NCBI GenBank assembly: GCA_947628815.1
Contig: CANRBJ010000002.1
Span: 67,584 to 127,035, forward strand
From: an uncultured Clostridia bacterium
GTDB taxonomy: Bacteria; Bacillota; Clostridia; TANB77; CAG-508
DNA: 59,452 nucleotides
Direction of reading: 5' to 3'
Shown here: in pieces, positions 35,261 through 59,452 of the stretch
Layout of the letters: every line of letters starts with the position of its first letter
Numbering within the stretch: position 1 is the stretch's first letter
Position numbers and translations under genes: made by a program
The notes under the pieces: model-generated
What the model was told of the DNA's origin: nothing
What the model saw: the letters and a program-made list of their open reading frames with translations, nothing else
The model's database searches: none

Positions 35261-35597
35261 GAAAACCTCCTCTATTATCTTTAAGATAATGCTGCAATTC
35301 TAATTGAAATAACCTAAGATGATCTGTCGCATCTATATCAGGACTTGGGTATTCTGAAAAGTACCTGGCTATTAGATCAATCCGGAGTGTATAATATAAT
35401 ACCCTTAGATCTGTAATATCTATCTCCGGATGATTCTCACAAAATATGAAATATCGAGTGACGACAGCGCTAAATGCTTTAAGAGTATTAGCATCTACAT
35501 CATTTAGATCTGCCTTCTGTATATTCCTGAAGTTAGTAGAATTATATTTTTTTAGATCGTGAAAGAAGATATTAGTTAATTTAGTACTAGAAACCAT
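35253..35597 (-). CDS. Small helical protein after the portal gene
   Basis: 114 aa, mostly helical (ANTLKAFSAVVTRYFIFCEN, LRLFQLELQHYLKDN), with GGAGGAGAG upstream. It overlaps both neighbours. It could be a head-tail adaptor. The stop is TAG with a TGA two codons later. Confidence 0.5.
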   Translation of the reverse strand: MVSSTKLTNIFFHDLKKYNSTNFRNIQKADLNDVDANTLKAFSAVVTRYFIFCENHPEIDITDLRVLYYTLRIDLIARYFSEYPSPDIDATDHLRLFQLELQHYLKDNRGGFHV

Positions 35598-37101
35598 CAG
35601 GCTCTCCTCCTTCCCAGTCCCCTTCCTTGTCGCTTAATTGAGGATCAATACTCCAAGAAGAGGTAGCAGCTCCTATCTGCGGGAACACCTCTGATAAGAT
35701 TTCTTGTAGAGCAATTAAATAATCTTCTTTATCTTTTACATTTAGATTCTTGAGCATATCTACCAATTGAGTAGCTTGAGATAAAGCAGAATCTCTCTTC
35801 TCAAATTGAATAGTGCTTTGAGTAGTTATGATAGGGTTCATATGTAAGGTAAAAGTATCTACATATGAGGATAGTCCCCTATTAATAAAGTATTTGTTGA
35901 AAGCATCAGTCCACCCTGTTTTATAAGCTGTCTCCAATCTCTGAAGAGAATTTGCATATAGAGCAGACCTTTGAGATAATACAGAACCGGCTCCGCCTAA
36001 CCCTTCATTTGAAGAGAAATTCATGGCCTCTTTAGGTACACCTAATACTGATAACTTTTTATCTTGATAATAATCCAGTAACTTAGAATCTGTATCATTA
36101 GCTTCTGCCATATTTAGATCTGTTATACTTATAGCATCTTGTCCGTTTACTTTTGGTAAATATATCAGGTTATTTGGAGATTGAGGATTGACAAAACTTT
36201 GAGCATCTCCATTATTGGTATTAATAGATAACTGTTGTTCAATTACATCTTTTATCTGCTGAAGTGTGTCACGAATCTCTGGTTCTTCTGCCTGTGACCC
36301 GCATTCTACATTTATAAATTTAACTACTCTAGATAAAGAAGAGAGTACTAATGAATCTTCTAATAACGATAATGTCTGAGTAGGTTGAACTGCTTTATCC
36401 ATCAAAGGCGTAGCAAATTGAATATCATACGTCTCCGTACTGCCATCAGACATCATAGCGTCTATAGTATAATCTCCTAAAATACCTCCAAGTGAAAAAT
36501 GGATAACAGCATCTTCTGGATATATCTTTAGATCACTCCCACCATCTTCTGGTTGATACATGTAACCCTTTGGTTCACCATTTAACCAAATATGTAATAT
36601 ATCCTCTGGTGGTATCTTGTATGCTGGAATTATATCATAATCTTCTTCCGGTATAGTATTATTATCTAATACTATTTTCTTGCTAGAACCTAATGATCTA
36701 TCTTCACGATAGAACATAGTAGAGGGAAGATATAGATTTCCTATAGTAGCTAATTCCAATATGTGGTCTCGAGCATATGCATTTATCTTCCACCTCTTGA
36801 ATAGAGCATTTATGATAGTAGCTACTTCTTTATGCTTAACATCATTCGCTGTCGCCCATATTATATCCCCTGCAGTGTTACAAGTAGTAGCATCTGTAGC
36901 ATAATAAGACAATGCGGTGTTTATTTGAGAATCTCTCGCTAACGCCCTCATAACATTTATCTGGGTATGTATATCTGCTAAACTGGTGTTACCCCTTAAA
37001 TCAGACCTATTAAATATAGAACCTCCTATGACCCTTCTTAAATAAGAGGTTGGATCGGATCTATTACGATTTACTAGTTTATCGTACCATCTACTCTTCA
37101 A
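35587..37101 (-). CDS. Portal protein
   Basis: 504 aa from a TTG with GAGGTGA upstream. SLADIHTQINVMRALARDSQ, INTALSYYATDATTCNTAGD, PPEDILHIWLNG, and the wing/crown region SVLGVPKEAMNFSSNEGLGG with SVLSQRSALYANSLQRLETA match T4-like portal proteins. These form the dodecameric DNA entry ring. It follows TerL and the ligase-like gene. Ends in TAG, with a TAA two codons on. Confidence 0.85.
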   Translation of the reverse strand: MKSRWYDKLVNRNRSDPTSYLRRVIGGSIFNRSDLRGNTSLADIHTQINVMRALARDSQINTALSYYATDATTCNTAGDIIWATANDVKHKEVATIINALFKRWKINAYARDHILELATIGNLYLPSTMFYREDRSLGSSKKIVLDNNTIPEEDYDIIPAYKIPPEDILHIWLNGEPKGYMYQPEDGGSDLKIYPEDAVIHFSLGGILGDYTIDAMMSDGSTETYDIQFATPLMDKAVQPTQTLSLLEDSLVLSSLSRVVKFINVECGSQAEEPEIRDTLQQIKDVIEQQLSINTNNGDAQSFVNPQSPNNLIYLPKVNGQDAISITDLNMAEANDTDSKLLDYYQDKKLSVLGVPKEAMNFSSNEGLGGAGSVLSQRSALYANSLQRLETAYKTGWTDAFNKYFINRGLSSYVDTFTLHMNPIITTQSTIQFEKRDSALSQATQLVDMLKNLNVKDKEDYLIALQEILSEVFPQIGAATSSWSIDPQLSDKEGDWEGGEPDGF

Positions 37102-37126: not shown

Positions 37127-38704
37127 TTAAAGGTTCTCTTTCAAATCTTTATCAATTTCGTAAAGATTAAAGAAACTAACTTCATCATAGATAGGAATAC
37201 GAATATCTCGAGCCTTACGAATTGCTGATCCATTCATTTCTTCCATAGTACCACCTGTAATGACGCATTGAATACCATCAACCCATTCTGTATAAACTTC
37301 AGCAGAATAACTCTTCAAGATAGCTATTATATCAGAAGTAGAACCGTGCAAGAAATTTCCAGTTATCAATATCTTCTTACCTCTAAATATAGGAGCTCCC
37401 TCAAATTTCTTATTCGTCTCTACAAATGATAATATATCTGAGTTTACTATTTTACATATATCTATAACATTTTCTTTATCAGATAACCATTCCATAAGAT
37501 TCTTGCCATAACGTCCATCTAATCTAATGAATGATGCCATTCTATCGGGATGTTGAATATAATAAATAATATTTTGAATGTTATTATTGCACTGATTTGT
37601 AAAAGAAGAAATGGAGGCTTTATCTGTACAACCTACCGGTACCATCGCCTCTAGTAAGTCGTGTGGGGTAGTCTCAATAGTTATATCCTGAGATTTTAAA
37701 TAACTTGCTATATCTGAAAATCTAAAGAACATCTGCGTCTTACTAGAAATAAAATAACCAAAGTAATCTTCAGCTGAAATCGTAGGTAATTTAAAATATG
37801 ATAAGAAATGATTGATATTTGGTAATTGATTAGACATACAATGTACATCTGTGCATCTTATATCTTCTCCGGAGTTCGGATCAATCTTAAAAGTATTACC
37901 ACAAATTTGACAAGTTACATTGGTACTTCTTTTATCTCGTTTTTTACTATCAGTCGTCTCCGCATAAATTACATTATTATATTTATCCATGACCAAAAGT
38001 GTGTTGGTATGAATATTATACTTAACTACTTGAGAGTAATCAACAAATATATCTTCACAATCACTTTTAAAAGATATCTTAGCTTTTAAATTTCCATAAG
38101 CATCGATGTATCTGCTTACACATTTCACAATATATTGACGTAATTCGGTAGAAACATAAGATACTTTATCATTACGATGTACAATATAACCAGAGATCAG
38201 AGGGAACTTGAAAGGAAAACTATCTGTATTAACCATTTTAATGAATCTTTCTCTAGTTAAATCAGATGGAACTATATATCCAGGTAGAACATGAAACTTA
38301 GACATATTTAACCAATTTCTTATAGGAGAGGCTCCTTTAAATTGAGTAGCATTGCTATCTACTGTTGCTGCAAAGAAATTGAATCTGTTAGGATTATCTA
38401 AGTAAGCAGATACCAAATTATTCTCTACAGATTCCGGCAGAGAACCCTCTGTCTGATAAACGCCAGAAGTATATAGCACCCCGAATACATAAGTGGTACC
38501 TCCTAAGATAGATATAGATACAGGAGCAGTAGCATTATTTCGGAATGTCTGGGTAATATCAAGGGATAATGATTTCTTTAGGTCACCATATCCGGAATGA
38601 ATCTTCTCCAATATGCCATTAGAATTGTATTGAAGAGTCACATTAAGTCCCAATGGAAGTACCGTTAGGTGGTCTCCAGGATTTAGACAATTTCTTACAT
38701 ACAT
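37127..38704 (-). CDS. Catalytically degenerate NAD+-dependent DNA-ligase-like protein (OB, Zn, HhH, BRCT)
   Basis: 525 aa. The order of parts follows LigA. A nucleotidyltransferase-like N-terminus (residues 10-185) includes FPLISGYIVHRNDK where LigA has its IDGVVVK strand. Next are an OB-like part and a four-Cys zinc motif (C265, C268, C284, C289). Then come HhH-like helices (AMVPVGCTDKASISSFTNQC) and a C-terminal BRCT domain (FRGKKILITGNF, about 440-515). The adenylated lysine motif KxDG is replaced by LPLGLN, so it should not ligate. Its place between terminase and portal suggests a DNA-end or packaging role. Confidence 0.6.
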   Translation of the reverse strand: MYVRNCLNPGDHLTVLPLGLNVTLQYNSNGILEKIHSGYGDLKKSLSLDITQTFRNNATAPVSISILGGTTYVFGVLYTSGVYQTEGSLPESVENNLVSAYLDNPNRFNFFAATVDSNATQFKGASPIRNWLNMSKFHVLPGYIVPSDLTRERFIKMVNTDSFPFKFPLISGYIVHRNDKVSYVSTELRQYIVKCVSRYIDAYGNLKAKISFKSDCEDIFVDYSQVVKYNIHTNTLLVMDKYNNVIYAETTDSKKRDKRSTNVTCQICGNTFKIDPNSGEDIRCTDVHCMSNQLPNINHFLSYFKLPTISAEDYFGYFISSKTQMFFRFSDIASYLKSQDITIETTPHDLLEAMVPVGCTDKASISSFTNQCNNNIQNIIYYIQHPDRMASFIRLDGRYGKNLMEWLSDKENVIDICKIVNSDILSFVETNKKFEGAPIFRGKKILITGNFLHGSTSDIIAILKSYSAEVYTEWVDGIQCVITGGTMEEMNGSAIRKARDIRIPIYDEVSFFNLYEIDKDLKENL

Positions 38705-38763
38705 TGTACATCACCCCCAAATAAGTTAATAAGTTCTGGAGTAGACAGTTTCTTACCCTTCAT
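38695..38763 (-). CDS. 22-aa ORF coupled to the ligase-like gene
   Basis: MKGKKLSTPELINLFGGDVQ plus two residues, with AGAGG upstream, and its stop overlapping the next ATG (ATGTA). It may be a leader for translational coupling, or a fragment of a longer N-terminus lost by frameshift. Confidence 0.4.
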   Translation of the reverse strand: MKGKKLSTPELINLFGGDVQCM

Positions 38764-38780: not shown

Positions 38781-40727
38781 TTATTGAAATTTTTTATATG
38801 GACTATTAAAGACAGATGGAATTGGTCCTTGGTTATTTGATCTATTGCCTCCACCCAATCTATTACCATTTAATTTAGATATAACATTTACTACAGTCTT
38901 AGTATTTACTAGTACTCCTGGATTATTCTGTGTAGCATTCCATACACTACCAGCTAATGAATCCGCCACGTCTTTACTTCCTCCAACTGGGTGATCAATC
39001 CTTCCAGTTATACTATCTCTTTGAAGATGTATCAATTCATCTTGAAGTAATTGCACATCTAACATATCTATTCTTTTTTCTAATAAAATAGAACGAAAAG
39101 CTTCGTAACCATCAGGGGTCCTATCTAACGATAATTTAGTAACTTTAAAACCTTGATCTTCTAATAACTGACCCATATACTCACTTTGAAATTGGTCTCT
39201 GCTTATTCCTTGGATATTAAATCCAGATCGTCTCAACCAACATATGAATGAAGTTATCTTAGAATATGCTATCTTATCCCCTCTGGGGGCCTCAATAGAC
39301 AAACTGAATACATGGGAATAAACGGGTTGAGATATTTTCTTACCTCCCTCATCTTCCACATCCTTTCTACCAGTTACAGCTACCCCAGATATACCGGTTT
39401 TATCTGTATTAAGCGACAGATCCAAATGTATAAACATAGGTGCCTGTTTGAGGGATGGATCTACTACTTCCATATGGAAATACTCTTCTATAGTTACTTT
39501 ATCTTGAGTACCTATTTGAAGTATATCCATGAAGAATGGATTTCTTCTGTTGCCTATGCACCTAGTAATAGACTCCTGAGATATAAACGATAATGCACCT
39601 GCTACAGATATTCCTGCTAAATCTCTCAATGCAATATGAAAATCAGCTAAGAAATCTGGCTTCATGTCTATAGGAGGGGTTAATAATTTATATCCCTGAT
39701 TTCTTAATTCATCTAAAGCTTCTGGAAAAGTTTGATTATCAGGTACTACAAAACCTTTTTGATGGCGATTACCTACTGCTATATAAAATTTTTCGGGGCT
39801 GAAAGTACTAGGAGGTAAAACTTCCCATTGAGGGGCATCTGATATGTACATATGATCACCAGCACCAGCATTGATCTGTTCTTGTACATATGCTTCCATA
39901 AAGTCACTATCACTTCTCTTAGAGCTTACAGCAAATATCTTACCATATACATCCCCATCTTGACGGAATGTGCCCTTTACACGAGCTGAAATAGTATTAT
40001 AAGTATCTTTCATTGTTGCTTTTGCTTTAGATATATCTTTTATTCCAGCCTTACTGAAGTTACACTCGTCCATAAAACCTACAAATACCTGCTGACCTAA
40101 TCCGTGAGAAGCATCTGAGCCATAATCTATTACTATCTTATTACCTTCTGGTATGTAATAAAAATTCTTCTCACTCCTGGAAAAACTTCCGTGAGCGCAG
40201 AACCAAGGGCTTTCTTTTAGAGTGTCGTTGAATTCTCTATATGCTACACCTTTAGCAAGATCTTTAGTTATATTGAAAAATAATATAGAGAATTTAGATA
40301 CCTCTTTCTTATGAAAGAATTTCTGTGGGTCTCTTAAACACATCAACCTATATAACATATAAGCGGTTCCTGTAATAGCAGTGGAAGATTTACCAATACG
40401 AGTTGCACCAGTTAATATCACTTCGTGAAACTGATTACCGGAATTAAATATATCCCTTAAAACCTTTCTCCAAAATGGATATACAGCCTCACCATTTCTA
40501 TTTGTCTTACCTAAATAAGTATCAGATTCTATGAAAGTGTCTATAGATACTGGTATCTCTTTATAATCTGCCAACCATATTTGTTCATATGTAGTGGAAT
40601 AACCATCTATGCTTATTTCTTCAAGTATCTGCCTTAAGTATTTTTGTTCTTCTTTTGAACAACTTGCATATATGTCCTTAATTCGGAAGGGTAGATCATC
40701 CATTTGATCTTGCAATTCGAACGACAT
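38781..40727 (-). CDS. terL: Terminase large subunit
   Basis: 648 aa. ATPase: Walker A GATRIGKSS at residues 107-115, Walker B region VFVGFMDECNF near 215, and a coupling segment FAVSSKR. Nuclease: HLDLSLNTDKTGISG near residue 410 supplies the first acidic residues of the RNase H fold, and DVADSLAGSVWN the last. It cuts and pumps concatemeric DNA through the portal. The upstream 167-aa gene may be its small-subunit partner. Confidence 0.95.
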   Translation of the reverse strand: MSFELQDQMDDLPFRIKDIYASCSKEEQKYLRQILEEISIDGYSTTYEQIWLADYKEIPVSIDTFIESDTYLGKTNRNGEAVYPFWRKVLRDIFNSGNQFHEVILTGATRIGKSSTAITGTAYMLYRLMCLRDPQKFFHKKEVSKFSILFFNITKDLAKGVAYREFNDTLKESPWFCAHGSFSRSEKNFYYIPEGNKIVIDYGSDASHGLGQQVFVGFMDECNFSKAGIKDISKAKATMKDTYNTISARVKGTFRQDGDVYGKIFAVSSKRSDSDFMEAYVQEQINAGAGDHMYISDAPQWEVLPPSTFSPEKFYIAVGNRHQKGFVVPDNQTFPEALDELRNQGYKLLTPPIDMKPDFLADFHIALRDLAGISVAGALSFISQESITRCIGNRRNPFFMDILQIGTQDKVTIEEYFHMEVVDPSLKQAPMFIHLDLSLNTDKTGISGVAVTGRKDVEDEGGKKISQPVYSHVFSLSIEAPRGDKIAYSKITSFICWLRRSGFNIQGISRDQFQSEYMGQLLEDQGFKVTKLSLDRTPDGYEAFRSILLEKRIDMLDVQLLQDELIHLQRDSITGRIDHPVGGSKDVADSLAGSVWNATQNNPGVLVNTKTVVNVISKLNGNRLGGGNRSNNQGPIPSVFNSPYKKFQ

Positions 40728-40736
40728 AAAATATAA

Positions 40737-41240
40737 TCACACCACCAATTGAGCCAGCACCTCTTGGGCTCTAGTCCTAATCTTTTCTCTAGACTCAGCA
40801 CCTATTAATATATTAGAATTAGTTGAATTAACTTCTTCGTTATTAGACGTCAATTCAACTATACTGAATTCTTGAATATCCAAATAAGGTTGTAGAAGCT
40901 TATGAGATTCAATCATAGTTTTCTGTAATCTTTCTTGAGCATTGAGTAACATCATCCAAGTGGACATGCTATCCTCTTTAGCATTATCTATAGTATGCTC
41001 TAGTGCCTTATACAGCTTATCCTCTAACTTATCCATTAATTCTAGGTATTTTATGATTCTGGCTATTTGATGATAAACTCTCATCGTAGTAATATTCTGG
41101 ATAGCTCTTTTTGTGGTGATAGGATCGTCTGAACAAGCCAACAAGGACGTCCGCATTCTACTGACGCCCTCTTTTTGATGCCTATATAACGGGTCTAATA
41201 TCTCTGGAGTTGACCCCTCAAAAGTATCGAGGTTCGACAA
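40737..41240 (-). CDS. Terminase small subunit candidate
   Basis: 167 aa from a TTG with GGGGGAA upstream. Helical: ITTKRAIQNITTMRVYHQIA, RIIKYLELMDKLEDKLYKAL, LNAQERLQKTMIESHKLLQP. It directly precedes TerL and has the coiled, acidic/basic helix content of small terminases, but no HTH is obvious. Confidence 0.45.
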   Translation of the reverse strand: MSNLDTFEGSTPEILDPLYRHQKEGVSRMRTSLLACSDDPITTKRAIQNITTMRVYHQIARIIKYLELMDKLEDKLYKALEHTIDNAKEDSMSTWMMLLNAQERLQKTMIESHKLLQPYLDIQEFSIVELTSNNEEVNSTNSNILIGAESREKIRTRAQEVLAQLVV

Positions 41241-44307: not shown

Positions 44308-45267
44308 TCATAATGAAAATAATTTTTTTGACCGTTTAACTCGGTCTTCCTTATAAGCATATCGAGTTTTTATCATCTTCTGAATATTATGCATTGTCAT
44401 TGCAGCTCTTGCAGAAGAAGAATCCTGAATTTGCTCCAATGTAAATCCAAGCGATTCAATCTCCTTCTTCAATAGATTCAAGTTGTATTCGTCAGCTGTA
44501 TCAACAAAGCTTAGATTCGACTTAGTTGAAGATGTACGAATCCGCTTAGATACCGAAATGACTCCGAAGTTTTCTGACAATATCTTTGCATAACCTGAAA
44601 TCAATCTGTGACTGATTGAATCTGCAGAATAGCAAGGATACTTCGATAAAGCATCAAGGCTGGTCATGCCATAAAGGTGAGTCTTTACATTCGGATTATT
44701 TGACATCTTTATTGTGTTTGCAACTTCGTTCAAATAGACATTTTTGGCTTGCTGATTCACATCGTTGGCCGGACTAATTCCAATGTAGTCAAGCATATTA
44801 CCTTCGTCATCTTTCCAAGAAAGCATCTTCCAGAGTACCGAGAAATCTTCACCATAGTGGAATACCGGCATCAACTTATGAGGCGATTTAACTCTGCTCC
44901 TCATGTAAAGAAAATTCTCCCAGGAGAGCCTTGCAGACTCCTCATAATCTTCTTTCGACTTCGGTTTTTGAAATTGACCAGGAATCTTATCAAGCTGTGC
45001 AAACACATCGATATCATCATCAATACTATTTAGATATTCAATGTATTCATCCGCAGTTGTATTCGCATTACCTGTATGAATACTGAATGCACCTGAATCT
45101 ATAAATAACCATCTGCAAAAACCGCTATGTTTCCACTTGATTGCTTTCTTAATTGCACTTTTATCCAGCTGCGATATCAGAATATCCAAAGGCTCAAAAT
45201 CAGGCATTGTAATCAACATATCGTGCATCTCATCTGTCAGTGAACCTGAAAACACATACTTTTCCAT
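44308..45267 (-). CDS. DpdA/TGT-like 7-deazaguanine DNA transglycosylase candidate
   Basis: 319 aa TIM-barrel protein. Motifs: RWLFIDSGAFSIHTG (DSGAF as in the TGT superfamily), DVFAQLDKIPG (candidate catalytic Asp), LMPVFHYGEDFSVLWKML, LDYIGISPAND, and THLYGMTSLDALSKYPCYSA followed by DS-S. These are shared with phage DpdA-like proteins that exchange guanine in DNA for 7-deazaguanines. The zinc site of tRNA-type TGT is not evident. A QueD-like gene lies upstream at 57265. Actual DNA modification is inferred. Confidence 0.6.
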   Translation of the reverse strand: MEKYVFSGSLTDEMHDMLITMPDFEPLDILISQLDKSAIKKAIKWKHSGFCRWLFIDSGAFSIHTGNANTTADEYIEYLNSIDDDIDVFAQLDKIPGQFQKPKSKEDYEESARLSWENFLYMRSRVKSPHKLMPVFHYGEDFSVLWKMLSWKDDEGNMLDYIGISPANDVNQQAKNVYLNEVANTIKMSNNPNVKTHLYGMTSLDALSKYPCYSADSISHRLISGYAKILSENFGVISVSKRIRTSSTKSNLSFVDTADEYNLNLLKKEIESLGFTLEQIQDSSSARAAMTMHNIQKMIKTRYAYKEDRVKRSKKLFSL

Positions 45268-45549: not shown

Positions 45550-46332
45550 TCAATCTCCGTACTTGCAATCAAATACAAATTTCGCTAGAACTGCATGAGA
45601 GGCAATTCGATATGAATTTAACTCCCTTATACAATTCATTGCATACTTTCTCACCTTGTCGGATCTAGATGTGCTCATTATGTAATTAATAACAAAGGCT
45701 GGATCATTTTCTGAATTATCGTTGAAATGACCAAGCTTCCAAACTATGTTAGAAACTGTATCCTTGAAGTTTACTATTTCTAAAAGCTCATCGAAGTATC
45801 TAAACTGATCTTCTGTAAATTGGTACACCATATCGACATCTTTCAATGTTTTAACAGCCTTCCAGACAAGGAGATTACTACACTTCATATACTTAGCAGC
45901 ATCTCGAACCTCTGCATAAGTTTTAATATCTGCTCCTATAGGAGATGACATACTCACACAAGCACTCCTACTGATGATAGTATCAGGGACTTTATATCGA
46001 TTTCGGCAAGTCACTACGATATAAACATTTTCGGCAGGCTCCTCTAAAAATTTCAAAAGTGTAAACGACGAACCTGCTACACCTGTATCTAGATTCTCTA
46101 TACAGAACATTACAGGATTCGATAAGTTATAGCTTATATCAATTACATCTCGGATTGACTGCACCGTTGGGTGCACAGTATAGAAATCAGATACTCCGAG
46201 CATCTGTGCATATTGCTTGGCAAGATAGGATTTACCGCAGCCTACCTGTCCTTCAATCAACACACTATGACGATTTCCCTTCGCAAGCGACTGCAACTCC
46301 TTTATTGATTCTTCTTGAAATTTCAGATTCAT
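45550..46332 (-). CDS. Clamp-loader delta-prime-like AAA+ protein
   Basis: 260 aa. Walker A GQVGCGKSYLAKQ (residues about 28-40), a Walker-B-like segment VMFCIENLD, and the clamp-loader stretch LKFLEEPAENVYIVVTCRNR with IISRSACVSM (SRC-like arginine finger region). It pairs with the delta and gamma/tau genes to load the sliding clamp. It overlaps the delta gene by ATGA. Confidence 0.75.
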   Translation of the reverse strand: MNLKFQEESIKELQSLAKGNRHSVLIEGQVGCGKSYLAKQYAQMLGVSDFYTVHPTVQSIRDVIDISYNLSNPVMFCIENLDTGVAGSSFTLLKFLEEPAENVYIVVTCRNRYKVPDTIISRSACVSMSSPIGADIKTYAEVRDAAKYMKCSNLLVWKAVKTLKDVDMVYQFTEDQFRYFDELLEIVNFKDTVSNIVWKLGHFNDNSENDPAFVINYIMSTSRSDKVRKYAMNCIRELNSYRIASHAVLAKFVFDCKYGD

Positions 46333-47246
46333 ATCATCTCTCCTATATCAGGTATCTCAGAAAACTGCAGTAAGCCGAAAAGGTAAATCAAACTCGACTT
46401 GACATCAGTGGCGTAAGACCGTAACTTTCGGATCACATCGTAAGTATTCATAAACATGTTGTATACATCTTTCTTTGTCCAACGCTTTACATATTCTCGA
46501 ATATCCGACTGGGTGTAGCTGTTGCTCAGAAGCCTTTCAAGCTCGATCATAGTTGACAAAATTGTGTATAAGATAGAATCAAGCTCTCCTGTATATGTTT
46601 CAAGTAAGTTATTGAGGTAGGAAAAATTCCTCGATGCTATACCTTTCTTGAATTCTGCATCTGATACACTTGTAATTTTTCCAAATAACGCTGTCAGCTG
46701 GGCATCTGTTAGAGCAAACAACTCTTCAGGACGTACTGTTGACATACTCTTACAAATATTTCTCGAATCTCCATAATTCGCTCCTATACGAGCGGCCAGC
46801 GAGATCAAGCGATCTGGTAGGTTCGAAAAGTCACTATGAAGATACTTTATCACGAAAGACTCACTAACAGCGTCTATGCTTACTGTATAATCTCCGAGGT
46901 ATTTCGATGCTTTGTTCAATCCTTTTGATGTACTGTCATATAAGCAAACTATAGTTCCAACGATATCAGTAGACTCTATCTTTCGCTTAGTACCATCAGA
47001 AAGCGAAGCAAGAAACTCCTCATCATATCGTATGACATAGAGTGTAGGCTTCAAGGGAACAAAATGCTTCATTGACATCATATCCAAAATCTGAGAAACA
47101 CTAGGCGACTCTTTTTTCGCTCCGTAGTGCTCTTCCAGAATAGATATATACTTCTCTTTGATACCTTGCTCAGATCCTGCAAAGATATAAAATTTCTTCG
47201 GCTTGTTACCGAGTATATCTGTACCTACTTCTTGTATCGTCAACAT
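46329..47246 (-). CDS. Clamp-loader delta subunit-like protein (HolA-type)
   Basis: 305 aa. KKFYIFAGSEQGIKEKYISI at the N-terminus resembles the HolA first strand; TLYVIRYDEEFLASLSDGTK and IVCLYDSTSKG mark the second. LFALTDAQLTALFGKITSVS and FSYLNNLLETYTGELDSILY correspond to the C-terminal collar. No Walker A, as expected for delta. Lies between delta-prime and the nuclease gene. Confidence 0.65.
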   Translation of the reverse strand: MLTIQEVGTDILGNKPKKFYIFAGSEQGIKEKYISILEEHYGAKKESPSVSQILDMMSMKHFVPLKPTLYVIRYDEEFLASLSDGTKRKIESTDIVGTIVCLYDSTSKGLNKASKYLGDYTVSIDAVSESFVIKYLHSDFSNLPDRLISLAARIGANYGDSRNICKSMSTVRPEELFALTDAQLTALFGKITSVSDAEFKKGIASRNFSYLNNLLETYTGELDSILYTILSTMIELERLLSNSYTQSDIREYVKRWTKKDVYNMFMNTYDVIRKLRSYATDVKSSLIYLFGLLQFSEIPDIGEMI

Positions 47247-47725
47247 CGTATCACCTCTCTAAATGTCGATATATCTGATAACAACACTAACGAATCGCCT
47301 AGCTTGATCTTGTATACAGCTCCTTTAGCTAATTCATAATGACTGAAATTTAGTGTATTCATCGACGTTCTTTTTGACAACAATGACGGTAGAGGTGCAA
47401 ATTGTTTACCCTTGTGCGAGATATCTAACATCGAAAAAATAACCCATGTTCGATTTAATTTCTGTGAACCGTCATCTACAAAGTATGCTGCGAATCGAAA
47501 CTTCGCCGCTGCTTCGTCAACTATCTTAGACCATATCTTGCTGTCAAAATGTATCTTATGATCTGGAGTAGTGTGTGTCTTGCACTCCCCTAACCAACTG
47601 TCACATTCTACATCACCAGTAACAATCGGTCTTGCGCCGCTGCCTTTTACTTGTTGCCAATCTAAGAAATCAGCGATAGACTTTTCTTGTTTATCGCTGA
47701 AAACCTTGTTACTCTTCTTCGCCAT
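47240..47725 (-). CDS. PD-(D/E)XK nuclease, resolvase-like
   Basis: The ATG at 47725 (MAKKSNKVFSDKQEKSIADF) is preferred over a start 7 codons earlier. VKGSGARPIVTGDVECDSWL and GECKTHTTPDHKIHFDSKIW give the GD...ECK core of PD-(D/E)XK nucleases such as phage Holliday-junction resolvases. It overlaps recA's 3' end, suggesting a recombination role. Confidence 0.6.
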   Translation of the reverse strand: MAKKSNKVFSDKQEKSIADFLDWQQVKGSGARPIVTGDVECDSWLGECKTHTTPDHKIHFDSKIWSKIVDEAAAKFRFAAYFVDDGSQKLNRTWVIFSMLDISHKGKQFAPLPSLLSKRTSMNTLNFSHYELAKGAVYKIKLGDSLVLLSDISTFREVIRC

Positions 47726-48869
47726 CAGAAATACCTTTGCCTTCAATATCGTTCAAAATGAATGTTTTTAGTGTTTCGTAATATTCTGGATTTGACTGCA
47801 AGTAATCGAAAACTCTCGATTTTCCATTGAGCTTGACTGGCCTACCTTCGCCATCTTCAATTAGCTCACCTGTATTCGGATCACACAATGTGAACCAAGC
47901 ACCTGATTTTCTTATGATCCCATATTTAGAAATTGCAAGCATTGCTAAGTCCATATCTACTCGGATGCCTGATTGAACCATCAAGTAATAAGAGCCGTTT
48001 CGTCTATCCCAAGGAGCAGATTTCTGCTTCACGATCTTTGCATTGACGATGTACCCTGCTGGATTCTCTGCGTTAGACGGTAACTCGTTCCCCAGGAAAT
48101 CTACAGGAGATCCGATTCTGAAGAGAATTCTCAGAGAGCAGTAGAACTTGAGGGCTTTTCCGCCAGGAGTATTTACCACATATGGATTATCCATATTATC
48201 TCTAACCTGATTAATAACAAGCAATGTACAATCGCATCTTGTTAAGATAGGTACAATCTTTCTACAAAACACAGTCAACAACCCTGCAAGGGACGCAACC
48301 GTACGCTCTCCATATTTCTTATCAAGCTCTTGAGATGTTATGAGGGACGGAATGCTGTCCAGAACTACAAGTCCAAGCTCGCTAGTTTCTATCAGCTCTT
48401 GCACAGTCTGCAAGATAATTTCAGCAGTAACATCAGGCGGCTGCATGATATCTATTTCATTTTCTTCAATGCCAAGCTTTCTCGCCCAAGCTCCGTCAAA
48501 CGAATGCTCAAGGTCGATGTAAAGTACTTTCTTCGGTCCAATCTCCCTCAAATCATCAAGTTCGGGAGCTAACGCCTTGTTGCCTCTGCTCACTTTATCT
48601 TCAAGATCATTGAGCTTTGCATTGTACTCATCTAAAAATATCTGTCTTGCATTCTTACAGATATCTACTGCAGTTGTAGATTTACCTCCACCAGGGTCAC
48701 CAAAAAACTCTGTTATCATATTCCTTGGAATACCACCATAAGTTGAATAGTTCAGCAGAGGGCTAGAGAACGGCAACTTCTTTCCTCGATCTGCATTCGC
48801 TCCATCCATGAGTCCAGAACACTGCCACTCTCGTTTCTTTTTATTGATTATATCTGAGTAACTTGACAT
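47709..48869 (-). CDS. recA: RecA-like recombinase
   Basis: 386 aa. Walker A GDPGGGKSTT (57-66), DLEHSFDGAWARKLGI, Walker B LGLVVLDSIPSLI, LLVINQVRDNMDNPYVVNTP and GGKALKFYCSLRILF are all RecA hallmarks. It promotes strand exchange for recombination-dependent replication and repair. It sits between the helical 195-aa protein and the nuclease gene. Confidence 0.93.
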   Translation of the reverse strand: MSSYSDIINKKKREWQCSGLMDGANADRGKKLPFSSPLLNYSTYGGIPRNMITEFFGDPGGGKSTTAVDICKNARQIFLDEYNAKLNDLEDKVSRGNKALAPELDDLREIGPKKVLYIDLEHSFDGAWARKLGIEENEIDIMQPPDVTAEIILQTVQELIETSELGLVVLDSIPSLITSQELDKKYGERTVASLAGLLTVFCRKIVPILTRCDCTLLVINQVRDNMDNPYVVNTPGGKALKFYCSLRILFRIGSPVDFLGNELPSNAENPAGYIVNAKIVKQKSAPWDRRNGSYYLMVQSGIRVDMDLAMLAISKYGIIRKSGAWFTLCDPNTGELIEDGEGRPVKLNGKSRVFDYLQSNPEYYETLKTFILNDIEGKGISDGEEE

Positions 48870-48903
48870 ATATTAATACCTCCGATACTTGAATACAATA
48901 ATA

Positions 48904-49488
48904 TCACTTGATATATTGTTTTGGGAGTCGATAATCTGGCAACTCTGATTCGTCTTCGGGAACGACAGGCCCAACAGGATCAGACGACTCTGCGCCTCTC
49001 CTAGAGTCCCAAATCTTTTTAGCTCCCATGATGAGTTCTCTAGCGAAAGACTGTTCATTCTCTACCCTTGTAATAACTGAGTTATACGCTGAAAGCAAAA
49101 TTTCATACTCAACCATCTTTTCGTTGAGAGCTCTACTGACAATCTCTTGTCTACTAGACTTACTTTGCTCTACTTGAGTAACCTCTTCCATCAAAGTTCT
49201 TCGAGTCTTCTCAAGAGTCTCCTTATTTTTGAGCTTGACAACTTCATGGTCAAGTCTCAATTTATTTAGATTCTCAGCCGCAGAGAAAAGCTCAAGCGGC
49301 AGATCTGTCAAAATATACGCAAGTTCCTCATTAGAGATAGGATGCGTCTTTGATTTCAGTCTAGTGTAGAGATCTCGTACACCATCAAAATATACACTAA
49401 AATTCTTTGAATATAAATCTTCGCAGAATTCATGAATTGCCTCTGCATCTTCTCTGTATTGATCAAATGTTTCAGATATAGTAGACAT
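48904..49488 (-). CDS. Coiled-coil protein between clamp loader and RecA
   Basis: 194 aa from ATG 49488, which overlaps the upstream gene's stop. Helical coiled coil in the middle (LRLDHEVVKLKNKETLEKTR...), acidic Pro-rich tail (DPVGPVVPEDESELPDYRLP). Its location suggests a recombination mediator or replisome adaptor, but no family is recognised. Confidence 0.6.
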   Translation of the reverse strand: MSTISETFDQYREDAEAIHEFCEDLYSKNFSVYFDGVRDLYTRLKSKTHPISNEELAYILTDLPLELFSAAENLNKLRLDHEVVKLKNKETLEKTRRTLMEEVTQVEQSKSSRQEIVSRALNEKMVEYEILLSAYNSVITRVENEQSFARELIMGAKKIWDSRRGAESSDPVGPVVPEDESELPDYRLPKQYIK

Positions 49489-50522
49489 CACTTATCCCCT
49501 TTCTTCGGAACACTACAAAGATAGGTGAGTGCAATCTCCTGAAGATACTGAGTAGATTTAAGATCAGCATTCAACTTGAGTAGTTTATTAGCAAGCTTCA
49601 AGCAGATAGCCGAATGTGCTATTCCGTAATTTGAGATCTTATTAAGATACTGGTTTGGAATCATTGTCTTCTCGATATCCTGAAGGAAAATATATTTCAC
49701 GACATTAATAACGAAAGAATGAAATCCTTCAAACCATTTGACGAAGTTTACTCCTGAATTATATACTTTATGAATGACTGATGTAATTGTCTTGTTGTCT
49801 TTCTTAGCGTAGGCAGACAGCAGCTCGAAATAATCATCGTATTCAGGAAGATTCAGTGCAGACATCAGCGTTTCAGACGTGATCGTATCACTATAGGCCA
49901 GTGCTTTGTCGAGTAGTGTCAAAGCGTCTCTCATACCACCATTGGCCATCTTTGCGATGTAGCTAACTGCATCTACATCATATTGAATATTCCTTCCTTC
50001 AGACTTCTCCATCTCGATAACTTTCACAAGCCGATTAGTGATACCTTCCAAGCTGATTTTAGAGAGCTGAAAAGTTTGAACCCTCGAAAGGATAGTTGCT
50101 GGTATCTTCTCAGGGTTAGTGGTGCAAAGAATAAACACACTTTTTGCTGGACCCTCTTCGAGCGTCTTCAGAAGAACTTGCCACGCTTGATTACTGAAAG
50201 AGTGTACTTCATCAAGAATAAACACCTTATAATTACTGCCTACAGGATATGACCTCGCCTGCTGAACAATTTCTCGTACACTATCTACACCGTTGTGAGA
50301 TGCAGCATCCATCTCAATTGGCTCTCCTTCTCCTTCGTTCAACACATTAGCCATGATACGAGCAGTTGTTGTCTTTCCAGTCCCTGCTGGTCCGATAAGA
50401 AGAAAATTTCGACTGTCAAGCTCCGGACGCTTACAGAGGTTTGAAATCATATTCACTACCAATGTCTGCTCTACAACATCATCAAAAGTCTTTGGTCTAT
50501 ATTTCACTGCTAAATTTGCCAT
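49488..50522 (-). CDS. dnaX: Clamp-loader ATPase, DnaX gamma/tau-like
   Basis: 344 aa. VKYRPKTFDDVVEQTLVV, Walker A GPAGTGKTTT (44-53), EMDAASHNGVDSVREI, Walker B VFILDEVHSFSNQAWQVLLK and ATILSRVQTF are near-textbook DnaX. It lacks the four-Cys zinc module of bacterial DnaX, so it is shorter than usual and gamma-like. With delta and delta-prime it forms a complete bacterial-type clamp loader. Confidence 0.93.
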   Translation of the reverse strand: MANLAVKYRPKTFDDVVEQTLVVNMISNLCKRPELDSRNFLLIGPAGTGKTTTARIMANVLNEGEGEPIEMDAASHNGVDSVREIVQQARSYPVGSNYKVFILDEVHSFSNQAWQVLLKTLEEGPAKSVFILCTTNPEKIPATILSRVQTFQLSKISLEGITNRLVKVIEMEKSEGRNIQYDVDAVSYIAKMANGGMRDALTLLDKALAYSDTITSETLMSALNLPEYDDYFELLSAYAKKDNKTITSVIHKVYNSGVNFVKWFEGFHSFVINVVKYIFLQDIEKTMIPNQYLNKISNYGIAHSAICLKLANKLLKLNADLKSTQYLQEIALTYLCSVPKKGDK

Positions 50523-50550
50523 GCATTCTCACCTCCAAATATACTAAAAA

Positions 50551-51336
50551 TCACCTACCGTACTCAGAGCATTTTTTATAGTAGGGACACATAGCAGACG
50601 TGCACCACTTATCACCTCTTGGAAGAGGTTCAGGTGCAAGATTCTTCTTAACCATGTCCATAACATATTCAAATCTGTTGAGTACTTCTTGACGCTCTAT
50701 GTCAGTGATTTTAACCTCATAGCACTTGAATTCTCCGTACTGTCTATCCTGGTAGAGGAAGAGAACTCCGCTGAGCTGCAGAAGTGTTGCATAACACTTT
50801 ATTTGATCAACGTGTTCTTCTTTCGGATCTGTCATTGAGTTCCAAGAAGAAAACTCTGATGTCTTTATTTCAAGGAGATACTTCTTTCCTCTCCACCGTA
50901 TAATTCCGTCACATGCAAATCTGATAGGCGGACTGACGATTTCTATCTGGTGCTCAAAACCGCTGTCATCTACTTTCAGCGAATACTGATAAGGAAAATC
51001 GATTGACTTCAAGTGATCTTCTACCGAGATCCAATCGTCTTTCAAAGCATCTTTCAAGTTACTTTGAATGATTCTATGACAAGCAGTTCCTATCTCTGCA
51101 GTAAAATTCAAAGTTCTGTCGACTACCTTGACATTATCTGGCTCAACTCCCCGAAGTCTGAACCAAGACCTCCTATTACATCTAAACGAAGACGCTGCAA
51201 AAGTAGAATGGGAGGGGCGAGCTGCCGCCTCCCGAATCTTATTATCTATATACTCTTCGTAAAAATCAAGAAATTCAGAACTTGTCGCAGAGTTGAATCG
51301 AGCTAAGTGTTGAGCTTCCCAGCTTCTAAATGCCAT
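50551..51336 (-). CDS. Cas4/RecB-like nuclease with Fe-S cysteines
   Basis: 261 aa. Catalytic core: H in GTACHRIIQ, D in FACDGIIRW, ExK in LLEIKTSEF, and QIKCYATLL. Cysteines: C53 in SFRCNRRSW plus C245, C250 and C256 near the end, the usual four ligands of a 4Fe-4S cluster in Cas4/AddB-type nucleases. It probably processes DNA ends during replication or recombination. No other CRISPR genes are near. Confidence 0.75.
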   Translation of the reverse strand: MAFRSWEAQHLARFNSATSSEFLDFYEEYIDNKIREAAARPSHSTFAASSFRCNRRSWFRLRGVEPDNVKVVDRTLNFTAEIGTACHRIIQSNLKDALKDDWISVEDHLKSIDFPYQYSLKVDDSGFEHQIEIVSPPIRFACDGIIRWRGKKYLLEIKTSEFSSWNSMTDPKEEHVDQIKCYATLLQLSGVLFLYQDRQYGEFKCYEVKITDIERQEVLNRFEYVMDMVKKNLAPEPLPRGDKWCTSAMCPYYKKCSEYGR

Positions 51337-52480: not shown

Positions 52481-54796
52481 TCAGCGACCTTGGAAGACTT
52501 TTGTCTCTATGTGGTCAATAAATTCTTCATCGGTCTTGAGGTTATATCGTTTCTTATAATGAGCTATGGCGCTGTCATAAGCATCGCTTATTATACCATT
52601 TACACCTAAGGCAGCATCTCCCCTTGGCTTATCGCCGTTCTCATCTTTGAATACAGGCAACTTATATTCAAGCTCGCACAAGCAATATTGTAACCATTTA
52701 ACCTCCTCGGGTTCTACTGTATCTAAAGATGTAGGCTTCTTGTATGGACAAGGATACTCTAATCCGTACCACCTCAATGTAGTTGTTACATCGCATTTAC
52801 TGCTGAATGGAAGGAAATCAGCAGCTTGTACCATCATTTCACTGAGTATCTCACCACCACGCTCCCATTGATCAATAGGAACTTCGGCAATCAGTTCATC
52901 GTGTACAGGTACAAGAAGCCTGCCTCCAATATCATTCCACTCTTGATTCTCTTTGAGTCTAAGAAGGGCTAACTTCGTCTGATCTGCGGCACTGCCTTGA
53001 ATGATACTATTTCCTGTGATGTAAACTTTGCCATTTCTTCTGGCTATCCAAGTATGCGTAGCTGTCTGCACACACCAACACATATCTGACTTCGTCATTG
53101 ATTTATGACGTGGATAGATTTGTGCTCGCTTTACTCTGAGGATGTTTACTGTCCAATATGGATTCTTAGTTTGCACATTTGTCTGTTTACTAGGCAAAGA
53201 ATCAGAATAATCAGCATTAGGATTCTTCCACCTTGCTATGTCCTCTGGAGTTATTTCATAAGCATTTGACGCTTTTCCTGCAACAAAGCATAATGCCTGA
53301 AACAGATCCTTCTTCAAAGCAGAGTTGCAGGTGTAAGTTATATTGCCTGCATTGTCACCCAAAGTACCGTCGCCTTCAATCATAGAAGTCATCACGATTT
53401 CAGCTTGTCTCTCAGACAAAGAAAATATGAAATCATATGTCAATACTCTATCGGGAAATGTTTTCCATATCTTCTCAGTAGTCTGCACTTTGTTCAAGTA
53501 TATTTCATGATAAACACCATCACTGCATCTATCATTGAAAGGAATCTGTAACTCCGACAATGTCGAAATCATGGAGGCATACACCTTAGCATTTTTCTTT
53601 CGCTTCGTGGATTGGTAAATATGAATACCATAGTGGATGTTTCCTGTAGTTTCGCTGCCTTGTTTGGAGTAGCAACCGTCTGTCATCACCCACCCAAGCA
53701 ACTTCAACTCGTTGTCAGACCACATCAAATTGTCTTCAAAGCAGTTGTCGCCTACTCTAAGTATCGGATAGTCAGGCCACCGGTTCTTGTATATGTTAGA
53801 AGTTTCTACTATCCTCGGATCTGTTTTTGATGTAGAGGAAACCCACCTATGATTCATAGTTGTAAGAGCATCAAATGTAGGTGATTTGAATTGAACCATT
53901 TCAACAGGCTCATGAGAAACAATGATGTCCTCTATGGAATCATGTACGACAGATTGCTCATTTACATCATATGCAAGTATCTCCTCGCCTACATGTATTT
54001 GATCATACCGCTTCCAGCCGTCTTCGGTGAGTATCTCAGTCTCCGCGTCTACACAATTCACACACTGCCGAGTAGCATCTGTAATCTTAGGACGATTGTT
54101 GATTACTTTGATATGCTCTTCCTCATAGAGTTCTCTTGTTCTCTTTGCAATCTGCCCAAAATACTTGTAGCCAGCAAACTCCTTCTTCAGAGCAGCGACA
54201 ACACGTTCTGGTATCTCGTCTTTGTTATTCAAAGTAGACGGGTCAAGCGGATCAACATCTGGATTGATATATCCTTGCATCGCTTTGAATTCAAATTCCG
54301 GTAGTTGCATATCGGGGAGATGTCTGCGCCTTCCAAGAATCGTTTCAACATATCCTTGAACCCTTGCAGCTTTTTGAGCACTTGTCATGAGTGTACGAAG
54401 ATTAGGAAAAGCATTCAGTACCGAATCATATATCTTCTGTGCGCTGCTTATCTTTTCTTCTGGAGTCATATTGTCATTTGTACCAAATAGCTGATCTGCG
54501 ATAGTTACAACGGAACGACCGTAGGTTATGCCGAGCACAATTGTTTTGGCTTCCCCTCGTCTCGCTTTACCATCGGGCTGATACTCTCCAGTTTCAGGAT
54601 GAAACTCCAAACATTTTTCATAAGGAAGATTGAAAGCGAGGCTCGCAATTGTTGCGTAGATGTCTTTGTTGTCTTTGAAAGCCTGTATCATCTTTTCATC
54701 TTTACTGACAAATGCAGTGAGTTTCGGTTCCTGTTGTGAGTAGTCGCTACTAAGCATTACATATGCGGGTGTTCGTACTGGAATTCTAATTGCCAT
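52481..54796 (-). CDS. polA: DNA polymerase I-like, C-terminal polypeptide, intein-containing
   Basis: 771 aa precursor. N-terminal extein: motif A SSDYSQQEPKLTAF (residues 16-29), O-helix/motif B KARRGEAKTIVLGITYG (77-93). After the intein (248-596): SIIQGSAADQTKLAL and motif C LLVPVHDELIAEVP. AGGAGG lies eight bases before ATG, inside the last codons of the upstream polymerase ORF. The palm is therefore split from its exonuclease/thumb half. After splicing the polypeptide would be 422 aa. Confidence 0.9.
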   Translation of the reverse strand: MAIRIPVRTPAYVMLSSDYSQQEPKLTAFVSKDEKMIQAFKDNKDIYATIASLAFNLPYEKCLEFHPETGEYQPDGKARRGEAKTIVLGITYGRSVVTIADQLFGTNDNMTPEEKISSAQKIYDSVLNAFPNLRTLMTSAQKAARVQGYVETILGRRRHLPDMQLPEFEFKAMQGYINPDVDPLDPSTLNNKDEIPERVVAALKKEFAGYKYFGQIAKRTRELYEEEHIKVINNRPKITDATRQCVNCVDAETEILTEDGWKRYDQIHVGEEILAYDVNEQSVVHDSIEDIIVSHEPVEMVQFKSPTFDALTTMNHRWVSSTSKTDPRIVETSNIYKNRWPDYPILRVGDNCFEDNLMWSDNELKLLGWVMTDGCYSKQGSETTGNIHYGIHIYQSTKRKKNAKVYASMISTLSELQIPFNDRCSDGVYHEIYLNKVQTTEKIWKTFPDRVLTYDFIFSLSERQAEIVMTSMIEGDGTLGDNAGNITYTCNSALKKDLFQALCFVAGKASNAYEITPEDIARWKNPNADYSDSLPSKQTNVQTKNPYWTVNILRVKRAQIYPRHKSMTKSDMCWCVQTATHTWIARRNGKVYITGNSIIQGSAADQTKLALLRLKENQEWNDIGGRLLVPVHDELIAEVPIDQWERGGEILSEMMVQAADFLPFSSKCDVTTTLRWYGLEYPCPYKKPTSLDTVEPEEVKWLQYCLCELEYKLPVFKDENGDKPRGDAALGVNGIISDAYDSAIAHYKKRYNLKTDEEFIDHIETKVFQGR
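53009..54055 (-). other. LAGLIDADG intein in the polymerase active-site motif
   Basis: 349 codons between QCVN and SIIQGSAAD. Block A: CVDAETEILTEDGWKRYDQI. Block B region: TTMNHRWV. Homing-endonuclease dodecapeptides LLGWVMTDG and MTSMIEGDG. Block F/G: THTWIARRNGKVYITGN, ending in Asn with Ser as the +1 residue. Cys1, Asn349 and Ser+1 are all present, so splicing should work. The penultimate residue is Gly, not His. Confidence 0.9.
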
Positions 54797-54798
54797 CT

Positions 54799-56364
54799 TT
54801 ACACCCTCCTCATTGTCAAATTGATATCCTTAGATGCTCTGACTACATCGAGTATCTGAAGAAATATTTTAGTTCCGTTCTCGATAGCTTCGATAATATC
54901 ACCGACCCTTAGGTCTTCAGAATTCTTCTCCTCGTGAGTATCGGTGTATACTTTATCATAACGAAACAGAGTAACAGTTATCTTATCGCCATCCTCTACA
55001 GCATCTTTGACATCATCTCTTGATGCAGTTGCTCTGAACATATGGCGGATGTCTACTGCATGAGAAGGGATATTCTGCATATTTGGATCTGCGCTTGACA
55101 TTCTTCCTGTGTCTGCACCTATCTGCTTAAACTGGGCATGGATTCTACTGTCAGAAGTAGTTGCCTTTGGCAGCTTCTCCACAAATGTAGAAATAAGAAC
55201 GCCTAAACTTCGTACTTTCAATATCTGCTTTGTTACTGGCAAGTTGAGATCATTGAGGACTGATTTGTCTGTTGACTCTCCACCCTTGCCTTTCGGCAGA
55301 TTCATGACCTTATAGAGAAGATATCTCACATGCACCGGAGATTTTGGATTGAAATCATCACCTCGTGTGAATGGTTTCTTATCGAATGAAGATATGGAGG
55401 TAGATTCGTCTAATAATTTATCTACCATACCCGCAAGGATCGCCATCTCGCGGCGCTCTTCGCCTTTATATCGATCAATCAATACACTGGAGATATCTTT
55501 ATCCAAGTAGATTCCTGTACGATGCATCTGCTGACATACTTTAATGAGAGGTATCTCTACATCCCAAACAAGCGATGCAATGGCCTCTAGATGTGCTTTC
55601 TTACACTTTGGATGGTCAGGAGTAACATAAGGTAACTGCCACTTAAACAGCTCAAATGTTATCTTTGCGTCATTTGCTGCATACAGCTTTGCAACATCAG
55701 GACTGCAATAAGGAAACAGCTGTGGTGTAAAGAAATCCCGGAACTTCATTGGATCTCCTTTGCCTTTCAGCACATACTTGTTATAAAGTCCTTTCAATGT
55801 GTTATCCATCTCATTTTCTTTTAAGCAACGCCATGCAAGGATCACATCATAGTAGCAAACATCACACATGTCGACCTTCAAATCTTTATGTATCATCGAC
55901 AAGTCGAAATCTGCGTTTGCAAATATCATCTTTGACTTTGAGTCAACAAACCTCTGTAATTCTTTTCCTACCTGCTCATAAGTCAACTGCCCTTTGTAAG
56001 GCTCGTCTATGATAGGTACCAAATGTTTCATGGGGATGTAACACTCTACACCCCCTGGATAATAGAGAGATGCTCCGACAACGGTGTCTTTGATTCTATC
56101 AAGTCCTGTCGTTTCTGTATCTATTCCTACATACGCAGATTCGATAGCTTTGGTGACGTAATCATGCAGCTCTTCTACAGATGTTATCAAGATAGCTGAA
56201 GAGTCTTGAAAGTAATCAATAACTTTCTGCGACATCTCTTTGATGTCTGAGCTGATACTCTTTGATTTGACTGGCTTTGCAGGTTCGTTCAGCTGGAGGC
56301 TCCTCTTTGCTATCTCATCTATATCGGCTCTTTTTGCCTGAGAGACAAGATTAAAAATAGCCAA
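54799..56364 (-). CDS. polA: DNA polymerase I-like, N-terminal polypeptide (3'-5' exonuclease and thumb)
   Basis: 521 aa from a TTG seven bases after GGAGG. Exonuclease motif I YVGIDTETTGLDR (about 93-105), Exo II region IFANADFDLSMIHK, Exo III YAANDAKITFELFK. Polymerase part: GRMSSADPNMQNIPSHAVDI and HMFRATA, just before motif A. The last ~74 residues (KVYTDTHEEKNSEDLRVGDI and following) are an extra beta-rich, Hint-like segment ahead of the stop. The gene ends two bases before the second polymerase ORF begins. Confidence 0.88.
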   Translation of the reverse strand: MAIFNLVSQAKRADIDEIAKRSLQLNEPAKPVKSKSISSDIKEMSQKVIDYFQDSSAILITSVEELHDYVTKAIESAYVGIDTETTGLDRIKDTVVGASLYYPGGVECYIPMKHLVPIIDEPYKGQLTYEQVGKELQRFVDSKSKMIFANADFDLSMIHKDLKVDMCDVCYYDVILAWRCLKENEMDNTLKGLYNKYVLKGKGDPMKFRDFFTPQLFPYCSPDVAKLYAANDAKITFELFKWQLPYVTPDHPKCKKAHLEAIASLVWDVEIPLIKVCQQMHRTGIYLDKDISSVLIDRYKGEERREMAILAGMVDKLLDESTSISSFDKKPFTRGDDFNPKSPVHVRYLLYKVMNLPKGKGGESTDKSVLNDLNLPVTKQILKVRSLGVLISTFVEKLPKATTSDSRIHAQFKQIGADTGRMSSADPNMQNIPSHAVDIRHMFRATASRDDVKDAVEDGDKITVTLFRYDKVYTDTHEEKNSEDLRVGDIIEAIENGTKIFLQILDVVRASKDINLTMRRV

Positions 56365-59208: not shown

Positions 59209-59452
59209 TTTTTTTCATTCCTTTTTTCGATAATTCTTGATATCTTTGATAATTCTTGATATTTGAAGATCAGACCTTATTGATTGACCCTACATGTATA
59301 TTATAAGGGCTTTTTGTCAAAAAGTCAAGGGGGTTTGAAAAAATTTCTGAAATTTTTTTTAAATTTTAATGATTTTGTAAAGATTGAAGATCAATCTTAC
59401 TAATTTTGGCCTATTTGTCGAAATTCTTAGAATTTATCTTTTCCGATCCTTT
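59084..59452. repeat. 369-bp perfect direct repeat, copy 2 (ends at the window edge)
   Basis: Identical to 27902-28270 and extends to the last base of the window, so its true length on this side is unknown. It contains the start and leader of the sigma-like gene and its promoter. Confidence 0.95.
59300..59328 (-). promoter_or_regulatory. Consensus sigma-A promoter, copy 2
   Basis: TTGACT (59323-59328), 17-bp spacer, TATAAT (59300-59305) on the minus strand. It drives the sigma-like gene and probably the replication genes beyond. Two 15-bp tandem repeats lie in the leader as in copy 1. Confidence 0.85.

Follow-up and report, generated by a model that had tools for sequence, protein, structure and literature searches.

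The bacterial NAD+-dependent DNA ligase (LigA, TIGR00575) carries adenylation, OB, zinc-finger, HhH and BRCT domains in this order, preceded by domain Ia, which binds NAD+. The protein described here, which we call the pseudo-ligase, shares with LigA the domain order, the folds and distant sequence homology; unlike LigA, it has no domain Ia, KxDG lysine, motif III glutamate, TRGDG, HhH hairpin glycines or BRCT lysine, and of the two only the pseudo-ligase is encoded between the genes for the terminase large subunit (TerL) and the portal protein of a phage.

In poxviruses, the processivity factor A20 has an inactive DNA ligase as its middle domain (PMC11142717). A20 (monkeypox A22) and the pseudo-ligase would both use an inactive adenylation and OB body in a non-catalytic role within a DNA machine. 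However, A20 belongs to the replication holoenzyme of a eukaryotic virus and works with a polymerase, not a packaging motor, and neither a zinc finger nor an HhH or BRCT domain has been described in its middle domain; the likeness is offered as an analogy, and homology is not claimed. A phage derivative of LigA is the heterodimeric DNA ligase of phage PR1 (PDB 9hu3 and 9i5i; one chain is named "DNA ligase subunit B"): its chains A/E match the adenylation/OB part of the pseudo-ligase and its chains B/F the zinc-finger/HhH part. The PR1 protein is titled as a heterodimer on nicked DNA, that is, presented as a working split enzyme, whereas the pseudo-ligase has both halves in a single chain, its adenylation half lacks the catalytic residues, and the phage encodes a complete catalytic LigA separately. 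Two BFVD entries with automatic annotation only, A0A8S5UC97 (Siphoviridae sp. ctgN495, "BRCT domain-containing protein") and A0A8S5UEV8 (ctX5W26, "DNA ligase"), match the pseudo-ligase structurally over the full length (TM 0.78, 29-33% identity) and are therefore very probably further members of the family; in ctgN495 a separate LigA (A0A8S5UCE9) is encoded as well.

Phage T4 provides precedents for a link of DNA repair with the portal and packaging: its ligase is required for encapsidation (Zachary & Black 1981, as cited in PMC10893049), and endonuclease VII (gp49) associates with the portal protein gp20 (Golz & Kemper 1999, as cited in PMC10893049). These T4 proteins differ from the pseudo-ligase in being active enzymes. 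Packaging motors cope poorly with gaps, branches and some nicked substrates, and T4 needs ligase for head filling (PMC10893049). A survey of jumbo phages described standalone ligase DNA-binding domains and proposed that they recruit the host ligase (PMC7824862). In the open-access full-text literature, the incomplete coverage of which makes absence only suggestive, we found no account of a protein like LigA encoded between the terminase and portal genes, nor of a phage pseudo-ligase, in agreement with the first-pass annotation of this locus, which knew of no described phage system using a pseudo-ligase in this way.

The pseudo-ligase gene and its phage genome

The window, that is, the whole stretch of 59,452 nucleotides analyzed here, comprises bases 67584-127035 of contig C2 (CANRBJ010000002.1; 127,035 bases) from a 1.78 Mb assembly of an uncultured Clostridia bacterium (GCA_947628815.1). 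Since the start and the end of the contig share the same 77 bases (an exact direct repeat, window 59376-59452 being identical to C2 1-77), C2 most likely represents an entire phage genome of ~126,958 bp, assembled as a circle and binned in a bacterial assembly. The bacterium sharing the bin with it need not be the phage host.

The first-pass annotation had described a dead NAD+-ligase-like protein with a zinc finger and a BRCT domain, encoded between terminase and portal genes and not among replication genes. The ORF was confirmed at the coordinates given there. It lies between TerL upstream and a T4-like portal gene downstream, and the following features were assigned:

35587-37101, (-): T4-like portal protein, downstream neighbour (PF07230, E 4e-14)
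37127-38704, (-): pseudo-ligase gene, 525 aa, ATG start
37130-37162, (-): acidic C-terminal tail YEIDxDLxxNL, conserved in the family alignment; candidate docking motif
37163-37408, (-): BRCT domain, residues 433-514 (hhalign, structure, PF00533)
37409-37828, (-): HhH-type helical domain, residues 293-432, hairpin glycines lost (separate AF2 model, structure comparison)
37829-37921, (-): Cys4 zinc finger, residues 262-292 (invariant Cys; hhalign)
37931-38140, (-): OB fold, residues ~189-258 (structure alignments; matches of the A1 profile to LigA genes)
38141-38704, (-): adenylation (nucleotidyltransferase) fold, residues 1-188, apparently catalytically dead (AF2 pLDDT ~90; structure and profile comparison)
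38648-38659, (-): lost KxDG site, residues 16-19, here LPLG, in the family V/L-P-x-G (31-member alignment)
38781-40727, (-): TerL, upstream neighbour (terminase profiles; identity to annotated terminases)

The profile matches of TerL are weak, and its identity to annotated terminases is 31-37%; a putative TerS is placed at 40737-41240. A Shine-Dalgarno-like sequence, GGGGGTGATG, is found just 5' of the pseudo-ligase start. A 22-codon ORF, MKGKKLSTPELINLFGGDVQCM (38695-38763, (-)), lies between TerL and the pseudo-ligase, overlaps the start of the latter and includes its ribosome-binding site; translational coupling of the two through this overlap is possible.

The separation from replication genes also held: the clamp, clamp-loader and polymerase genes form a cluster at 45-56 kb of the window, apart from the packaging genes, and the real LigA of the phage is encoded at 29.7-30.3 kb of C2.

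The family and its gene order

As a single query, the window's protein found no relative in viral contigs, while phmmer against the PDB yielded chance cytochrome matches only and a Pfam search a sub-threshold BRCT only. Relatives were reached first via relatives of TerL in viral contigs, 13 of 13 of which have a pseudo-ligase gene directly after TerL, and then via alignment search. The family comprises at least 31 distinct full-length proteins, the window's one and 30 others that are 28-47% identical to it; one locus, found with a tighter alignment in a scan of genome contigs, is in a Clostridium MAG. Most of the starts inspected follow a purine stretch resembling a Shine-Dalgarno sequence; in a few this is weaker.

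The placement seen in the window recurs in related phages. The next gene downstream is the portal in all 30 viral loci, and the next identified gene upstream is TerL in 29 of them, the contig of the remaining locus (L038) starting at the pseudo-ligase gene. The conserved run in these loci is putative TerS, TerL, pseudo-ligase, portal, four small genes and tail sheath. Mean pairwise identity is 33% for the pseudo-ligase versus 52% for TerL and 61% for the portal, so it evolves faster than its neighbours.

No member was found by tblastn of two family proteins against cultured phages. Judged by portal and TerL, the closest cultured phages are Bacillus phage SP-15 and Listeria phage LIS04; in both, the portal gene comes immediately after TerL, and no family relative was found near either gene in these two phages or in a Streptococcus phage. 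The gene is therefore a fixed feature of the TerL-portal junction in a single clade of gut phages, most of them uncultured. One SP-15 gene annotated as BRCT-similar, SP15_031, was rejected as a relative, its sequence and its site before the capsid gene suggesting a prohead protease or scaffold.

A pseudoenzyme derived from LigA

The pseudo-ligase is a pseudoenzyme derived from bacterial-type LigA that has kept the order adenylation-OB-zinc finger-HhH-BRCT and lost domain Ia. All 31 members match TIGR00575, the window's protein with 32 bits, far under the NCBIfam curated cut-off of 444. Comparison of the family with 21 catalytic LigA proteins by hhalign gave 99.5% and E 1.2e-22 over residues 18-518. 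Across 55 related bacterial genomes, the family profile had a match in 35 (own genome included), and the matched genes are LigA-sized and matched in the OB/zinc-finger and BRCT regions. Of the earlier statement that the domain order follows LigA, the part from the adenylation domain through BRCT thus stands, but domain Ia is missing: the first residue of the protein corresponds to LigA residue ~85, where the alignments begin.

The AF2 model of the full protein has a mean pLDDT of 88.4 and a pTM of 0.69; in the structure comparison the rmsd over the full length is ~19 A, because the domain arrangement differs or is uncertain at this pTM. By sequence, the N-terminal adenylation fold is the weakest link: its profile alone gave only 50% and E 1.6e-4 (versus 0.018-0.78 for shuffled columns), although it aligned to the correct LigA region. 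In the model, residues 1-186 can be overlaid on the adenylation domains of LigA (Z 11.1, 172 residues, 3.8 A); the refuting outcome named in the first-pass annotation, a structure prediction lacking this fold, was thus checked for and did not occur. The OB and HhH segments alone reach no profile significance, and both rest on structure and the full-length profile. For OB, structure alignments with chains A/E of the PR1 ligase and with M. tuberculosis LigA reach residues 246-264, and positions 214-336 of the A1 profile match LigA genes. The segment 258-432 with the zinc finger and HhH, modelled separately by AF2 (pLDDT 91), matches LigA structures with Z 9.8-10.8 (E. coli LigA 401-586: Z 10.1, 162 residues), the best non-ligase match having Z 4.0.

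The proposed zinc finger and BRCT domain were both confirmed. The zinc finger has the form CxxC...CxxxxC, with C265, C268, C284 and C289 invariant in 31/31 members, and its segment gave 96% and E 2e-9 by hhalign; the BRCT segment gave 96.8% and E 2e-10, PF00533 is detected in 23 of the 31 members, and residues 433-517 match the Rfc1 BRCT (Z 10.6, 82 residues, 2.6 A).

The reported loss of KxDG extends to the whole family. At position 16, the motif I lysine site, the 31 members have V (22), L (5), M (2), I (1) and T (1) and never K, while P17 and G19 are invariant (31/31). The motif III glutamate (RGE) is replaced by V, I, M or T, TRGDG being absent in all 31 proteins, and the aspartate of motif IV (DG) is mostly S, A or T in the profile alignment; the structural glycines G19 and G75 are retained in 31/31. 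The sequence of the 525-aa protein contains no intact nucleotidyl-lysine motif elsewhere. At the same time, 24 columns are invariant among the 31 members, and the dN/dS ratio is 0.084 in the closest pair (L011/L016, dS 0.89), the other pairs being near saturation. To judge from these alignments, the pseudo-ligase is an ancestral, conserved and catalytically dead protein and not a fresh pseudogene. Profiles, structure, the conserved active-site loss and the fixed synteny all agree with the dead NAD+-ligase-like identity.

Possible roles in packaging and alternatives

Taken with the gene order, this suggests that genome packaging has taken over the body of a repair enzyme for a role without catalysis. 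In the best reading, given moderate confidence, the pseudo-ligase serves the packaging machine as a non-catalytic adaptor. The synteny is observed directly, and co-expression with terminase and portal is inferred. The adaptor would be made together with these proteins; its BRCT domain and acidic tail would dock on a packaging partner, for example TerL or the portal, and the ligase-shaped clamp would hold or gauge the duplex entering the head. It could possibly couple nick or branch repair with packaging, sealing itself being left to the separate LigA, whose gene and motif are present and which is presumably active. A more specific version seems unlikely, in which the protein would grip the concatemer where terminase and portal meet, detect nicks or ends by means of its clamp and BRCT, and license packaging or make it pause; we know of no tailed phage with such a packaging quality-control step. 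These two gradings, for the adaptor as a whole and for nick or end sensing, follow from the fixed neighbours and the T4 precedents, set against the loss of DNA-contact features. Of the first-pass interpretation, the dead ligase between terminase and portal is supported, and its packaging role is suggested by location and conservation.

The proposal of nick or end binding did not fare as well. None of the five glycine columns conserved in the HhH region of LigA is matched by a conserved glycine in the family, and the phosphate-binding lysine of BRCT alpha-2 is absent. The net charge of the BRCT core is ~-2 in the family versus ~+3 in the phages' own LigA and -1 in bacterial LigA, and the overall fraction of basic residues is lower (0.094 versus 0.126). 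Conserved basic residues are few (R441, K443, K270, H/R453 and K/R499). Because the hairpin glycines and the phosphate-binding lysine are lost, specific binding of nicks or 5' ends is possible but weakened. The tail YEIDxDLxxNL is conserved (Y515, I517 and D518 in 30/31 each, D520 in 31/31), was not seen in the aligned catalytic LigA proteins and is a candidate docking site.

The same observations could be explained by a purely structural or assembly protein, a portal-associated or minor head scaffold making no DNA contact, which we consider somewhat unlikely. The loss of HhH glycines, BRCT lysine and basic residues, the scarcity of conserved basic positions, a conserved acidic tail suggestive of protein contacts and the position in a run of head genes would all fit such a protein; but the protein retains its full series of five DNA-handling domains in their order, the invariant Cys4 zinc finger included, and a scaffold has no obvious need of them. 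The packaging adaptor, too, has points against it: the weakened DNA-contact features, evolution faster than that of TerL and portal, and the nearest cultured relatives, which package DNA without the gene.

C2 encodes a separate, 560-aa LigA with intact KLDG (L002:628-2310, (-)), near 29-31 kb and outside the window. Its BRCT is found in an overlapping frame (L002:399-668), which therefore implies a frameshift between HhH and BRCT, either real or an assembly error. A LigA of the catalytic type is present in 11 of 20 related records (in L081 the motif reads KEDG); those without it may be incomplete contigs, and in three of them, with the same proviso, no ATP-dependent ligase was found. The pseudo-ligase could accordingly be a partner or regulator of a catalytic LigA of phage or host, recruiting it to late DNA or keeping it off concatemer ends. 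The LigA genes of this phage and of the 11 records are consistent with this idea, as are the proposed host-ligase recruiters of other jumbo phages (PMC7824862), but the pseudo-ligase gene is in the packaging cluster and has no genetic linkage to the catalytic ligase. Moreover, family members score a median of 24 bits against bacterial-type LigA and -1 bits against the main phage LigA group, so the pseudo-ligase is no recent duplicate of the supposed partner, and we regard this explanation as rather improbable. On the same scores we rejected an origin as a recent duplicate of the LigA of the phage, bearing in mind that this LigA is divergent too.

Still less probable is a replication or late-transcription clamp factor similar to poxvirus A20 and merely encoded among late genes. 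Foldseek matches do include the poxvirus A22/A20 processivity factors (E ~1e-6), and the BRCT resembles that of the clamp loader Rfc1; yet clamp, clamp-loader and polymerase genes have their own cluster, and the invariant neighbours of the pseudo-ligase are TerL and portal. A decaying or mis-assembled, functionless ligase relic, as the missing catalytic residues and domain Ia might indicate, is refuted by the conservation of at least 31 intact full-length homologues with 24 invariant columns under purifying selection.

A ligase body lacking catalysis would be a concrete candidate for a link between DNA integrity and packaging, its gene being fixed between those of motor and portal across a broad clade of phages in which a real ligase is also retained. 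The LigA scaffold would thus be recruitable as a pseudoenzyme in bacterial viruses, as the ligase fold was in poxviruses, and some of the gut-phage proteins annotated as "DNA ligase" may be dead.

Several minor observations concern other genes. Separate from packaging, 45550-51336 (-) contains a replication-recombination cluster of two or three clamp-loader-like genes together with genes for a RecA/UvsX-like recombinase and a Cas4/RecB-like exonuclease, and 44308-45267 (-) a queuine tRNA-ribosyltransferase-like gene (phrog_887, E 4.5e-39), possibly involved in DNA or tRNA modification. A family A DNA polymerase is split across the adjacent ORFs 52481-54796 (-) and 54799-56364 (-), the break lying just ahead of the polymerase motif DYSQ; the second ORF of the pair has an intein-like insert from CVDAETEILTEDGW to VYITGN, followed by SIIQGSAADQ. 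Apparent intein-like interruptions (VYDI...NGVVSHN and VYDIEV...NGLVVHNS), unannotated in the record, are also seen in TerL of Streptococcus phage vB_SagM-GXN1 (L100:3783-6744).
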